Shown here: one piece after another, positions 5,207 through 30,157 of the stretch
Position numbering within the stretch: the first letter of the stretch is position 1
How the letters are laid out: each line of letters opens with the position of its first letter
NCBI GenBank assembly: GCA_026713825.1
Contig: JAPONS010000013.1
Coordinates: 1-39,777, forward strand
DNA: 39,777 nucleotides
Direction of reading: 5' to 3'
Source: Chloroflexota bacterium
GTDB lineage: Bacteria; Chloroflexota; Dehalococcoidia; Lucifugimonadales; UBA1127
Notes under the pieces: generated by a model
The model's input: the letters and a program-made list of their open reading frames with translations, nothing else
What the model was told of the DNA's origin: nothing
Database searches by the model: none
Made by a program: the position numbers and the translations under genes

Positions 5207-6490
5207 ATGACCCAGACAAACGTCAGCACCAAGGCAACCATCGCCGCCAAGCACTGGGAAGGTCAGGACGTGACGGAGCTGTTGGCGCGGTCCGCCGCGG
5301 TGCTGCCGGCAATCAGCGCGACTGAAGCGGGGACGCAGGGACGGTCCATCGTCTTCTCTAGGACCGAGCATGCGTCGCCCATAAACTTGGGCGGCGGCAT
5401 TCCGGACCCGGACTCGCTGCCCGTCGCAGGGCTGCAGGCGGCCATCAACAGGGTCTTCGAGACGACATCCGAGCCGGCGCTGCGGTACGGCGGCATCTTC
5501 GGCTTCGAGGACCTGCGCGCGGTGGTAGCGGAGCGGCAGGGGCGGATCCAGGGCATCAAGCTCTCGTACGAGAACTTCCTGATGACGCACGGCGGCTCGG
5601 GCGGCATCGACGCCGTGTGCGACACGTTCCTCAACCCGGGGGACGTGTGCATCGTCGAGCGGCCGCACTTCTCGGGGTCGCTGCGGACGATCCGCGGGCA
5701 CCTGTGCGAGGTCGTCGAGGTGGAGCTGGGCGAGGACGAACTCTTCGCCGAGCGGGTGGAGGAGACGCTGCAACGGCTGGAGGCGGAGGGCAAGCACGCC
5801 AAGCTGCTGTACACGGTGCCGGACCATCACAACCCCTCGGGCGCGACGATGCCGCTGGCGGTGCGGGAGAAGCTGGTGGAGGTCTGCGCACGGCACCGGG
5901 TCTTCATCATGGAGGACATGGCGTACACGGAGCTGTATTTCGACGCGCCGCCGCCTCCATCGCTGTACGCGGTGGCCGACGGGCACGGGGTGATCCAGGT
6001 GGGGAGCTTCAGCAAGATTGTCGCGACGGGGCTGCGGGTTGGGTGGATACAGGCGCGGCTGCCGGTCATCGAGTCCGTGGGCCGGGTGCGGTTCGACATG
6101 GGCGGGAGCCCGCTGCTGCACCGGGCGCTGACGCTGTACGTCGGGAGCGGCGACCTGGAGCCGCACGTGGACATGCTGCGGGGCATCTACCGCCGCAAGT
6201 GCGATGCGCTGGTCTCGACGCTGCGGGAGCACTGCGAGCCGTACCTGCGCTTCGAGGAGCCCGCGGGCGGGTTCTTCCTGTGGGCCGAGTGCATCGGCGC
6301 GACGGCGCAGGACGTGGCGCAGGCGGGGGCAGAGGAAGGCCTCACCTTCGCGGCGGGCTCCAACTTCTACAAGGACCGCGAGGCGGCGGACACGTCGCAC
6401 GTGCGGCTTGCGCTGAGCTACGCGTCGCTGACGGAGCTGGAGGACGTTGGGCCGCGGTTCCTGCGGGCGTTCCAGCGCGTGGTGGACTAG
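5207..6490 (+). CDS. PLP-dependent class I/II aminotransferase (2-aminoadipate/MocR-like fold)
   Basis: 427 aa fold-type I aminotransferase. The substrate-side loop 'LGGGIPDPDSLP' (about residue 62), 'YGGIFGFEDLR' and the cofactor-stacking 'THGGSGGIDAV' are in order. 'DHHNPSGATM' is the Asn loop, 'MEDMAYTELYF' holds the pyridine-N Asp, and 'SFSKIVATGLRVGW' carries the Schiff-base Lys. The C-terminal domain ends with the substrate-carboxylate region 'LALSYAS'. Closest recalled relatives are LysN/2-aminoadipate-type and valine-pyruvate-type enzymes; exact amino donor and acceptor are not predictable. The ATG follows 'TTGGAG'. Cytosolic. The next gene converges on it and the stops overlap by 4 bp. 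Confidence 0.9.
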   Translation: MTQTNVSTKATIAAKHWEGQDVTELLARSAAVLPAISATEAGTQGRSIVFSRTEHASPINLGGGIPDPDSLPVAGLQAAINRVFETTSEPALRYGGIFGFEDLRAVVAERQGRIQGIKLSYENFLMTHGGSGGIDAVCDTFLNPGDVCIVERPHFSGSLRTIRGHLCEVVEVELGEDELFAERVEETLQRLEAEGKHAKLLYTVPDHHNPSGATMPLAVREKLVEVCARHRVFIMEDMAYTELYFDAPPPPSLYAVADGHGVIQVGSFSKIVATGLRVGWIQARLPVIESVGRVRFDMGGSPLLHRALTLYVGSGDLEPHVDMLRGIYRRKCDALVSTLREHCEPYLRFEEPAGGFFLWAECIGATAQDVAQAGAEEGLTFAAGSNFYKDREAADTSHVRLALSYASLTELEDVGPRFLRAFQRVVD

Positions 6491-8004
6491 CACTTCAGCG
6501 AGTCCCGGGCCTCGGCGATGGCGCGGAGCTTGGCCTCCGCGGTGCGGGCCGAGGCGACGGGGTTGTCGGCGAAGGTGGCGAAGCCGCAGTCCGGCGTTAG
6601 CAAGACGCGCTCCTCTCCGAACAGGTTGACGGCCTGTTCAATGCGCCCTCGGACTTCCTCTAGTGACTCCACGGTGTCCAGCTTCTGATTGACCACGCCT
6701 ACGGCTATGCGCTTGTCGTCCGGGAGGGACTTGAGGACGGCGGCCTCTCCGGCGCGGGGCGTGGAGAGCTCGAGGAAGAGGGTTCCGACGTCGGCGCGGG
6801 AGAGGGCGTCGAGGAGGGGGGCGTAGTCACCGGCGAGGGCGGCGGACTCGTCGGGCGTCCAGTTGCCGCGGCAGACGTGGAGGCCGAGGCGGTCGCTCGG
6901 CAGGCCGTGGGTGACCTCGTTCAGCAGACCTACCGCGAAATCCAACTCCGGGCCCGGCTCCAGTTTCTCGCTTAGGGCGCCGCACATGAAGCTGCGGTTG
7001 CCGGACTGTGCCCCAAACACCACCTCGGTCAGTACAGGCTCATCGAACTGCACCAGGGACGCCCCGGCGGCGAGCAGGTAGTGCAGCTCCTCACGCAGCA
7101 CCCGGACTACGTCGCGGGCGAGGTCTTCGCGGGTGTTGTAGGGCATCTCTTCGAGGCAGTCGAGCCACATGGTGCGGGTGAGCAGGTAGGGGCCGGGGAG
7201 GGCGATCTTGACCGGGCGGCCGGCGCACTCGCGGACGAACGCGAGCTCGTGGACGGCGAGGGAGCGGCTGCGGCCGAGGTGGCCGAAGACGACGGGGTGG
7301 CGGACCTCAGCGGTGGGGACGTCCAGGGCGCGGAGCTCTCTCTCGAACTTGTCCGGGTCATCGACCATGGCGGTGAGGTCGCTGAGGGGGATGAGCTGGC
7401 AGTTGTCGAGGAGGCTGCCGACGAAGCTGGCGTAGCTGTCGCGGCGCTGCTCGCCGTCGGTGAGGACGTCGGCGCCGGCGCGGAGCTGGGCGTCGACGGC
7501 GAGGCGGACGGCGTCGTCAGCGGTGGCCTGGAAGTCGGCGTCGCCGAGGCGGCCCTCGAAGCGGTCGTGGACGGCCTGAATCATCCAGCGGGGGCGCGGC
7601 CAACTGCCGACGCCCATGATGGAGAGGGGGGCGATAGCCGGCGCGGGCCGCGGGTGCGGCAGGGTATCGGGGATGGTCACCGGGACGCGCTCGTGGACGG
7701 CGGCGATGGGGGTGGGGGCCTCGGCGACGGCGGGGGCGCGCTCGGTCAGCGATCCCTTGCAGACGAGGAAGCTGCGCTGGCCGTCCTCCTTCGTCCAGGA
7801 GACGAGCTGGTTGCTGGTGAGGCGGCACCAGGCGGGGAGCTCGACCTCGACAGTGCGGTCTGTGGAGAGGATCTCCAGGAGGCCGCCGCGGTCCAAGGGG
7901 TCGATGTGGCGGCGGATGAGGAGGAGGAGACCGCTGCCGCAATCGAGGTTGCCGCCGTCAAAGCTGACGTCGGGCGTGTAGTCGTGGCGTTCGACGGGGT
8001 CCAT
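6487..8004 (-). CDS. TusA-like domain fused to a MetE-type (cobalamin-independent methionine synthase-like) methyltransferase
   Basis: 505 aa. Residues 1 to about 85 form a TusA-like sulfur-carrier domain: 'NLDCGSGLLLLIRRHIDPLD' then 'VELPAWCRLTSNQLV'. The usual CPxP motif reads CGSG, and one Cys keeps the catalytic position. A Pro/Ala linker leads into a MetE catalytic-barrel domain from about residue 128 ('SIMGVGSWPRP'). It includes 'DVLTDGEQRRDSY', 'VQFDEPVL', the zinc ligands 'LHVCRGNW' (H-x-C) and 'LTPDCGFAT' (Cys). The MetE N-terminal half is absent, as in core-MetE proteins. Zinc thiolate methyl transfer is the expected chemistry; acceptor and donor are unknown. It is last of a tight TusA-DsrE-fusion set (18 and 16 bp gaps). 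Confidence 0.85.
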   Translation of the reverse strand: MDPVERHDYTPDVSFDGGNLDCGSGLLLLIRRHIDPLDRGGLLEILSTDRTVEVELPAWCRLTSNQLVSWTKEDGQRSFLVCKGSLTERAPAVAEAPTPIAAVHERVPVTIPDTLPHPRPAPAIAPLSIMGVGSWPRPRWMIQAVHDRFEGRLGDADFQATADDAVRLAVDAQLRAGADVLTDGEQRRDSYASFVGSLLDNCQLIPLSDLTAMVDDPDKFERELRALDVPTAEVRHPVVFGHLGRSRSLAVHELAFVRECAGRPVKIALPGPYLLTRTMWLDCLEEMPYNTREDLARDVVRVLREELHYLLAAGASLVQFDEPVLTEVVFGAQSGNRSFMCGALSEKLEPGPELDFAVGLLNEVTHGLPSDRLGLHVCRGNWTPDESAALAGDYAPLLDALSRADVGTLFLELSTPRAGEAAVLKSLPDDKRIAVGVVNQKLDTVESLEEVRGRIEQAVNLFGEERVLLTPDCGFATFADNPVASARTAEAKLRAIAEARDSLKC

Positions 8005-8022
8005 GTCTCGCTCCGCGCAGGG

Positions 8023-8385
8023 TTAGAAGGAGACGCTGGCCGCGCCGTTCGACAGGTACTCGACGAGGACTGCGCCGCCGACGATCTGGGCGCCGTCGAC
8101 GAGGTTGTCAGGGTCGAGGCCGCGCTTGTTGAAGCAGGGCGAGCAGACGTAGATGGTGCCGCCGGCCCCGGTGAAGTTGTCCATCAGGTCCTTCAGGGGC
8201 AGGAAACCCTCCTCGTGGGCGTCGTCGGCGTAGCCCTTCTGGGAGAGGCGGACGCCCTCTGTGCTGAGGAAGACGACGGTGTCCTTCTCCGAGCCGAGGG
8301 CGGCGTTGGCGATGACAAATGCGACGGTTGCGCGGTCGGGGTCCTCCAGGGCACGGGTGAGGAAGACGCAGAACTGTCCAGCCAT
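8023..8385 (-). CDS. DsrE/DsrF-like sulfur relay protein
   Basis: 120 aa, a one-domain DsrE-like fold. It has 'FCVFLTRALEDPDRATVAFVIA' at the N-terminus and 'DTVVFLSTEGVRL', with 'IYVCSPCFNKRGL' (about residue 80) carrying two Cys at the place of the active Cys in this family. The ATG at 8385 is chosen because AAGGAG lies seven bases upstream; a longer frame from 8439 overlaps the TusA-like gene and adds low-complexity sequence. DsrE-type proteins pass persulfide sulfur to TusA partners, and here it is sandwiched between two TusA-like modules. Cytosolic. The family is reasonably sure, the exact role inferred. Confidence 0.82.
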   Translation of the reverse strand: MAGQFCVFLTRALEDPDRATVAFVIANAALGSEKDTVVFLSTEGVRLSQKGYADDAHEEGFLPLKDLMDNFTGAGGTIYVCSPCFNKRGLDPDNLVDGAQIVGGAVLVEYLSNGAASVSF

Positions 8386-8401
8386 TTGGGCTCTCCTTGT
8401 A

Positions 8402-8647
8402 CTAGCGTTGTTTGATCCAGTAGTCGGGGTGGTCTGCATGGAGCAGGGCGCGGCTGGTGAGGCGGCACCATGCAGGCATCTCGACGGGCGCGGCCTGGTC
8501 GCGGGCGGTGAGCTTGAGCACCTGACCCGATTGGAGGGACTGCATATGGCCGCGCAGGAGGATGAGGATCTCGCCGCAACCGAGGTGACCTGCGTCCCAC
8601 TCGGCGTCGGCGCGAATGTCGTCCGAGGTCACGTCGCGCTCCGGCAT
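8402..8647 (-). CDS. TusA-like sulfur-carrier protein with altered CPxP motif
   Basis: 81 aa from the ATG at 8647; a GTG at 8689 would add 14 residues and neither start has a strong ribosome-binding site. The fold pattern matches TusA: 'EWDAGHLGCGEILILLRGHM', 'LQSGQVLKLTARD', 'PVEMPAWCRLTSRALL'. The catalytic Cys is kept but the motif is CGEI rather than CPxP. The segment 'PAWCRLTS' is shared exactly with the TusA-like domain of the fusion protein downstream, so the two modules are paralogues. It lies 16 bp before the DsrE-like gene. The likely role is a thiol sulfur or alkyl carrier for that pair; this is inference. Confidence 0.75.
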   Translation of the reverse strand: MPERDVTSDDIRADAEWDAGHLGCGEILILLRGHMQSLQSGQVLKLTARDQAAPVEMPAWCRLTSRALLHADHPDYWIKQR

Positions 8648-29095: not shown

Positions 29096-30157
29096 CTACG
29101 GGGCGGCGTCCTCCATGATCTCCAGCTCTCGCCGGACGATGGCGGCGCCCTGTACGAGGGCTTGGAGCTTGGCGTAGGCCACGGGCCTCGGGAGGTACTT
29201 CATGCCGCAGTCTGGCGCGAGGACGAGGCGATCGGGAGGGAGGTGGCGCAGGGCGGCGCGGATGCGGCCCGCGACGGTCTCGGGCAACTCGACGTCGGGG
29301 TCGGCGAGGTCCAGGACGCCGAGGATGATGGTCTTGGACGGGAGGAGCTGCAGGGAACGCAGATCAAGGCCGGGCTGCGCGGCCTCGACGGACACTTGCT
29401 GCACGCTGCTGGCGTCAAGCTCCTCGAGGAAGTCGTAGGCGTTGGGCTTGGCGCCGGGGACCTTGGCGGCGTAACCGAAGCAGAGGTGGAGCGCGGTGAC
29501 GCCTTCGGCGCCGCCCAGGGCGCGGTCGATGGCCTCGACGGCGAACTCGCGGGCGGCGCCGGCGCGGGCCTGCAGCCAGGGCTCGTCGAGCTGGACGACG
29601 TCTACGCCGGCGGCGAAGAGGTCGCGCACCTCCGCGTTGACGGCGCCGGCGAAGGCGAGCGCCAGGGCGCGCGGGTCGCGGTAGTAGTTGTCGACGCACT
29701 GCTGCGAGAGGGTGAAGGGGCCGGGGACGGTGACCTTGACGGCGCGGCCGGTCGCGCCGCGCAGGAAGCGGGCCTCGGCGAGCAGCACGGGCTGGGTGCG
29801 GGCGATGGGGCCGACGACGCGGGGCACCTCGACCGTCGTGCCGGCGCGGCGGCCAGGGACAATGCCCGGACGCTCCGGGTCGACGCCGCTGAGGGCGGTG
29901 GCGAAGGCGCTGGAGTAGCTCTGGCGGCGCACCTCGCCGTCGGTGACCACGTCGATGCCGGCGCGCTCCATGTCGCGGATGGCGACGGCGGCGGCGGCGT
30001 CGAGCGCCTCGGGCAGCGCCTCGTCCGGGACGCGCCAGAAGCCGCGCTGCAGGACGCGGGGCACCGTGCCCCGCGTCAGCACGTCGCGGTCGACGAGCCA
30101 GTCGGGCTGCGGGTAGCTGCCGACGACCGTGGTCGGCAGGAGCTTGTCGGGGATCAT
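29096..30157 (-). CDS. Core-MetE-type methyltransferase (cobalamin-independent methionine synthase family)
   Basis: 353 aa from the ATG at 30157, preceded by CCGGAGG. It contains only the catalytic barrel of MetE: 'TTVVGSYPQPDWL', 'GIDVVTDGEVRRQSY', 'VKVTVPGPFTLSQQ', 'VDVVQLDEPWLQ', zinc ligands 'TALHLCFGYAAKV' (H-x-C) and 'LVLAPDCGMKYLP' (Cys). Full-length MetE has an extra N-terminal half for folate; proteins without it usually take methyl groups from another donor such as a corrinoid protein. It lies 17 bp after a second MetE-like gene, so the two are made together, perhaps as partners. Acceptor (homocysteine or another thiol) is not proven. Confidence 0.9.
   Translation of the reverse strand: MIPDKLLPTTVVGSYPQPDWLVDRDVLTRGTVPRVLQRGFWRVPDEALPEALDAAAAVAIRDMERAGIDVVTDGEVRRQSYSSAFATALSGVDPERPGIVPGRRAGTTVEVPRVVGPIARTQPVLLAEARFLRGATGRAVKVTVPGPFTLSQQCVDNYYRDPRALALAFAGAVNAEVRDLFAAGVDVVQLDEPWLQARAGAAREFAVEAIDRALGGAEGVTALHLCFGYAAKVPGAKPNAYDFLEELDASSVQQVSVEAAQPGLDLRSLQLLPSKTIILGVLDLADPDVELPETVAGRIRAALRHLPPDRLVLAPDCGMKYLPRPVAYAKLQALVQGAAIVRRELEIMEDAAP

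Follow-up and report, generated by a model that had tools for sequence, protein, structure and literature searches.

Why does a zinc methyltransferase of the MetE type carry a sulfur-carrier domain at its N-terminus, and why is it encoded next to two further carrier proteins? This question is raised by a locus in a 39,777-nt stretch of a Chloroflexota genome (Dehalococcoidia; GenBank assembly GCA_026713825.1, contig JAPONS010000013.1), the whole of which is called the window below. Three genes lie there on the minus strand, from 8647 to 6487, and encode, in this order, a TusA-like carrier (T, 81 aa, starting MPERDVTS, 8402..8647), a DsrE-like protein (D, 120 aa, ATG at 8385, 8023..8385) and a TusA::MetE fusion (M, 505 aa, 6487..8004), with gaps of 16 bp between T and D (8386-8401) and 18 bp between D and M (8005-8022). 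An earlier note on this DNA, made from its letters alone, had pointed out these three genes and their close spacing, with which coordinates and Pfam matches agree. The trio is found almost only in selenium-using bacteria, i.e., in genomes with SelD, selenocysteine (Sec) or selenouridine (SeU), and may salvage or deliver selenium.

A carrier and methyltransferase trio conserved across phyla

The fusion M matches Pfam Meth_synt_2 (6.8e-25), and its residues 27-83 match Pfam TusA (7e-6), with a score of 26.2 bits that is just below the cut-off of 28.6. Among 22 aligned relatives, the Meth_synt_2 match is present in 22/22 and the TusA match in 21/22 (E<=0.001, best 4.7e-9). In an AlphaFold model of M (mean pLDDT 79.9), the first 85 residues follow the beta-alpha-beta-alpha-beta-beta order of TusA (strands E13-16, E42-47, E66-73 and E76-82, helices H26-34 and H52-62), so that the TusA-like nature of this domain, claimed in the earlier note and left there to structural modelling, is borne out. 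The domain covers approximately residues 10-85 (7750..7977), is 41% identical to T, and has a cysteine, C22 (codon 7939-7941), that is kept in 80 relatives, an invariance that could be selected for by the peptides used in the genome-collection scan (FDGGxLDC and VEVELPAW); the motif is also kept in pattern-free matches from Paracoccus plasmids, from G026 and from whole-genome searches of Burkholderiales, as well as in the G008 orthologue (alignment A1).

Behind the TusA-like domain, and separated from it by a proline-rich linker, lies a barrel (approximately residues 126-505, 6490..7629), whose nearest fold is that of MesD (3rpd, VIA-align Z 35.2, root-mean-square deviation 2.6 over 323 residues), and which also aligns with Thermotoga maritima MetE bound to zinc and homocysteine (1xdj, Z 33.2). 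The N-terminal folate half of MetE is absent, TIGR01371 matches only the C-terminal part of M (53.9 bits vs a cut-off of 929.95), and each curated NCBIfam model of methionine synthases that matched M did so with a score under its cut-off. In an alignment with Escherichia coli MetE, W561, the pterin-stacking tryptophan, corresponds to W280 of M. The zinc ligands H641, C643, E665 and C726 and the homocysteine-binding residues S433, E484 and D599 of the E. coli enzyme, whose roles have been described (PMC7857596), correspond respectively to the predicted ligands H376 (6877-6879), C378 (6871-6873), E412 (6769-6771) and C473 (6586-6588), all on the minus strand within 6586..6879, and to S134, E185 and D321. 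All these residues are conserved family-wide, the zinc ligands at 97% or more across 80 fusions, and judging from its residues the methyltransferase site of M looks functional, in line with the zinc methyltransferase proposed beforehand. Compared with the catalytic domain of MetE and with MesA-MesD (PMC7857596), M thus shares the barrel fold, the HCEC zinc ligands, the S/E/D homocysteine residues and the pterin-stacking tryptophan, but differs by its TusA-like domain in place of the folate domain, and by its partner genes T and D; no TusA fusion is mentioned in this core methionine synthase paper.

Both partners are recognizable as carrier-type proteins. T matches NCBIfam TusA (2.3e-7) and Pfam TusA (2.5e-5, slightly below the gathering score), and its C24 aligns with the CPxP cysteine of E. 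coli TusA (3lvj), followed by a glycine where CPxP has proline; this C-G pair is kept across 64 relatives, and a second cysteine, C61, occurs in PAWC. The CPxP motif is absent from T and from the TusA-like domain of M throughout the family, both having C-G instead, a point beyond the earlier note. D matches Pfam DsrE well above its cut-off (1.5e-14, 54.6 vs 22.7 bits), and the CxxC noticed beforehand is the CSPC of its VCSPCFNKRGL motif; CxPCFxKRG is kept in D relatives, with C81, P83 and C84 conserved, and C81-x-P-C84 stands in a C-x6-R-G context that resembles DsrE/TusD. From this conservation, the relay cysteines of T, D and the M domain look functional. The trio shares with the known TusA and DsrE/TusD relay the fold, the position of the carrier cysteines and the adjacency of TusA and DsrE genes, but it has C-G rather than CPxP, and its partner is a methyltransferase, not TusBCD, MnmA or sHdr.

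To what extent is this arrangement conserved? Surveying the trio had been set beforehand as a test, and the cluster turned out to be kept far outside its contig. One genome-collection scan found M relatives at 282 places, and the best 80 of these, which match most or all of the 505 aa at 60-95% identity, cluster at 85% identity into 56 lineages, 54 of which have D near the fusion (approximately 60-78% identical) and 49 a separate T. The trio occurs in at least ten phyla, the best 80 coming from Chloroflexota, Latescibacterota, Acidobacteria, Gemmatimonadota, Verrucomicrobia, Planctomycetota, Rokubacteria, Binatia, Obscuribacterales, Deltaproteobacteria and Alpha/Betaproteobacteria, where the labels of contigs from metagenome-assembled genomes (MAGs) are possibly wrong in single cases, not in bulk. 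It is also present in isolates of Burkholderia, Paraburkholderia, Duganella, Massilia, Achromobacter, Bordetella, Nitrospirillum and Beijerinckia, and on plasmids of Paracoccus; no trio was found on plasmids beyond Paracoccus. Since gene order and strand are kept across phyla at 60-95% identity, the arrangement is not due to chance. Orthologues of M in the same genus have the same flanking genes; two other families of the order keep the order T-D-M with different ones. The trio is present in 5/200 Burkholderiales and in 1/249 Hyphomicrobiales, the latter being the query's own genome; it is an accessory unit, and apparently a mobile one.

The carriers themselves vary in some lineages. In Verrucomicrobia, Planctomycetota and some Deltaproteobacteria, the stand-alone TusA begins with an additional Cys-rich domain (CxxC...H...CxxC), as at loci L068 (6393-7127), L083, L066, L069, L098, L119 and L062, and a second, more distant DsrE-like gene (~130 aa) lies close to the trio at Burkholderiales-type loci (L065, L075, L080, L081, L085, L087, L096, L102, L108, L112 and L115).

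Each part of the trio is of a known kind, and it is the combination, together with its selenium association, that appears new. The earlier note knew of no described pathway with this set, and a literature search, with subscription journals mostly outside its reach, likewise found no description of the trio or of the fusion.

Co-occurrence with selenium utilisation

That the trio tracks selenium utilisation, and adjoins Sec genes in several lineages, had no place in the earlier note. Among 74 trio genomes scored for SelD, tRNA-Sec and SelU, SelD is above cut-off in 70, tRNA-Sec is present in 57 and SelU in 35, and 71 have tRNA-Sec or SelU. The 17 trio genomes without tRNA-Sec rule out this tRNA as the sole partner of the trio; SelU occurs in 14 of them, all Burkholderiales-type, and SelD/SelU fits better as partner. 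Because the association holds for either of the two selenium traits, a position of the trio upstream of SelD fits best. Trio genomes exceed their relatives for tRNA-Sec in Hyphomicrobiales (4/4 vs 22/248 without the trio, p=9e-5) and Burkholderiales (18/32 vs 55/195, p=0.002), and for SelD in Burkholderiales (31/33 vs 141/195, p=0.004), in tests that ignore phylogeny, with trio sets that come from a similarity scan and not from a random draw, and with order assignments that rest on genome labels.

Selenium genes are also found directly beside the trio. On plasmid pFER4 of Paracoccus ferrooxidans, T and D are followed by a cassette encoding a secreted protein and by M; selA comes 78 bp further on, then trxB, and selB, tRNA-Sec and a UGSC selenoprotein lie within ~13 kb. 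In a verrucomicrobial locus (L068), M is followed by selB, selA, selD and tRNA-Sec, in a betaproteobacterium (L115) selB and tRNA-Sec adjoin the trio, and in another genome (G118) selD is 2.4 kb away. Overall, 4/56 lineages have a selenium gene within 8 kb, for 0.5-0.7 expected (p ~0.002-0.006).

Two selenoproteins were noticed alongside. The UGSC-family selenoprotein of pFER4 (L123, 5496-6065, minus strand) is annotated as separate truncated coding sequences because its in-frame TGA (GLAN-U-GSC) was taken for a stop codon. The SelD of the source genome (L144, G000:C17:26857-27777) has an in-frame TGA at its active-site position (LAHCAG-TGA-AAK), and is thus itself a predicted selenoprotein.

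Taken together, a link of the trio with selenium is probable, and several observations weigh against it or against selenium as the cargo. A selenium gene within 8 kb is missing at most trio loci, and the number of lineages that have one is only moderately improbable. The adjacency of SelB in Chloroflexota is weak evidence, SelB being part there of a general HemW-SelB-NurA block; it was downgraded after NurA had been found next to SelB in genomes that lack the trio. Three genomes, all draft MAGs (G071, G540 and G543), have neither tRNA-Sec nor SelU; the SelD of G543 has an in-frame TGA. The SelD background of Burkholderiales is high (72.5%), and nearly all genomes of the window's own order have tRNA-Sec, so that counts of tRNA-Sec and SelB were uninformative there as a test, the Burkholderiales and Hyphomicrobiales controls being used instead. 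Co-occurrence cannot separate selenium cargo from sulfur cargo, and in one Binatia group (loci L116 and L122) metY-metX-metW adjoin D-M in divergent orientation, which points to plain methionine synthesis.

These last observations lead to a first alternative, in which T and D would deliver protein-bound sulfur and M would methylate homocysteine without the folate domain of MetE, the selenium link being a by-product of lineage sampling. A somewhat comparable case is Wolinella, where protein thiocarboxylates feed methionine synthesis. Such a sulfur-fed methionine synthase would agree with the intact homocysteine, zinc and pterin-stacking residues of M, with the met genes directly beside the DsrE-fusion pair in Binatia, and with DsrE/TusA proteins being known mainly as sulfur carriers. 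However, the rarity of the trio and its plasmid location in Paracoccus indicate an accessory function rather than a housekeeping one, and both the presence of SelD in nearly all trio genomes and selA directly downstream in Paracoccus are left unexplained, so that this alternative is considered improbable.

Candidate chemistry and its precedents

How could two carriers and a tethered methyltransferase act together in selenium-using bacteria? The trio can tentatively be read as a selenium-linked module, with selenium or sulfur as cargo, that combines carriers and a methyltransferase upstream of SelD, a reading to which we give somewhat less than an even chance. T and D would pass a persulfide or perselenide group between their cysteines (C24 of T and C81 of D), and that a carrier relay of this kind operates in the trio is likely. 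The TusA-like domain of M would carry the group on C22, either delivering it to the barrel's zinc site or collecting it there. At this site a methyl group would pass to a homocysteine-type thiolate or come from one; for methyl transfer that involves homocysteine, the chances are about even. In the favoured version, a methylated selenium (or sulfur) compound would be demethylated onto homocysteine, yielding methionine, and the freed selenide would stay on the carriers for SelD; that methyl-selenium is the methyl donor is in itself rather doubtful.

The compound would probably be imported in proteobacteria whose operon includes a transport-like cassette. Many proteobacteria have one of two cassettes inserted between D and M: the first encodes a PhnD/PhnE/PhnC-like ATP-binding cassette (ABC) transporter, and the second a small membrane protein and a secreted, C-terminally anchored 520-aa protein without Pfam match. 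These cassettes tentatively suggest an imported substrate. No fold could be inferred for the 520-aa protein, for which the model was too poor (pLDDT 47); it is encoded at loci L104 (6402-7979), L110, L065, L102, L111, L117, L084 and L123.

Which thiol would then exchange methyl groups with the zinc site? The earlier note had concluded from the fusion that a thiol or persulfide bound to a protein donates or accepts the methyl group, which is not established, M keeping the homocysteine residues of E. coli MetE. With these residues kept, a small amino-acid thiol or selenol is a likelier acceptor than a protein-bound persulfide. The corresponding alternative, in which M would methylate or demethylate a protein-bound thiol or persulfide on its own TusA unit in a methylthiol-type chemistry, agrees with the covalent tether between carrier and barrel and with the conservation of C22; but the residues for free homocysteine argue against it, as does the lack of any recognisable gene for methanethiol oxidase or sulfur oxidation among the recurrent neighbours, and it is very unlikely.

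A carrier pair linked to SelD is not without parallel. YedF, a SirA and DsrE protein, is linked to SelD (PMC5322559, PMC2432076), and the trio shares with it (TIGR03527) TusA-like and DsrE-like parts linked to SelD, but these are two separate genes, with C-G/CxPC for CPxP/CGxC, and are completed by the TusA::MetE enzyme; neither T nor D matched TIGR03527 in an NCBIfam search. Given that YedF has its SelD link without any methyltransferase (PMC5322559), and that the trio is associated with selenium as well, T, D and the TusA domain could merely relay selenium or sulfur to SelD, the barrel binding a substrate or metal without methyl transfer. The strict conservation of four zinc ligands and three homocysteine-binding residues argues instead for retained methyl-transfer chemistry, making this trafficking role quite improbable.

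Precedents combining both activities come from archaea. In Methanococcus, the SdmABC methyltransferases of the MetE/UROD superfamily are tied to the use of methyl-selenide (dimethylselenide), and under selenium depletion of M. maripaludis an SdmABC-type locus and a TusAD pair are both up by ~4.5 log2-fold or more, a TusAD response called not obvious by its authors (PMC10418091, PMC11097638). These archaeal data are the closest precedent for the trio. SdmABC and type I mlp are, like M, MetE/UROD-superfamily zinc methyltransferases linked to Sec genomes; in contrast, the trio enzyme is MetE-type and not SCMT-type, has its carrier domain fused, and in many cases belongs to Burkholderiales or other aerobic-type lineages. 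No corrinoid protein was recognised in the window neighbourhood or in families common to at least three lineages, the neighbours being only partly scanned. A carrier-tethered, corrinoid-free counterpart of SdmABC/TusAD may thus be an economical reading of the trio. Spelled out in full, methyl-selenium would be salvaged without corrinoid, a TusA-tethered MetE-type zinc enzyme moving the methyl group from imported or endogenous methylated selenium to homocysteine and the carriers supplying SelD, in Sec and selenouridine users of at least ten phyla; this complete scheme is unlikely to hold in every part.

How selenium is delivered to SelD without loss among far more abundant sulfur is a standing question in bacteria, and according to a 2026 review there is no known prokaryotic system that transports selenium specifically and with high affinity (PMC13188914). 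A conserved carrier and methyltransferase unit that tracks selenium use makes the delivery question testable in cultivable Paracoccus and Duganella, and, if the proposed chemistry is true, the MetE family would be extended to a carrier-tethered form.

Other genes of the window and related loci

The genes that flank the trio in the window (Rieske/LigXa, Gfo/Idh, flavin adenine dinucleotide (FAD) oxidase, pyridoxal phosphate (PLP) enzyme, class II aldolase and NIPSNAP) were rejected as pathway members, being syntenic within the genus only, with other families lacking them near the trio. A secreted transglutaminase-like protein is recurrent upstream of the trio in five lineages. The window contains a second MetE-type gene (29159-30133, minus strand, Meth_synt_2 3.9e-29), and the source genome (G000) has ~20 MetE-like matches, an unusual expansion of paralogues in this Dehalococcoidia-type lineage. 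Finally, plasmid pNOCA01 of Nocardioides sp. JS614 carries a TusA-DsrE pair (L148, 7080-8366) with no fusion annotated nearby and adjoining a nickel-responsive SCO4226-like gene, and the pair may be a wider module.

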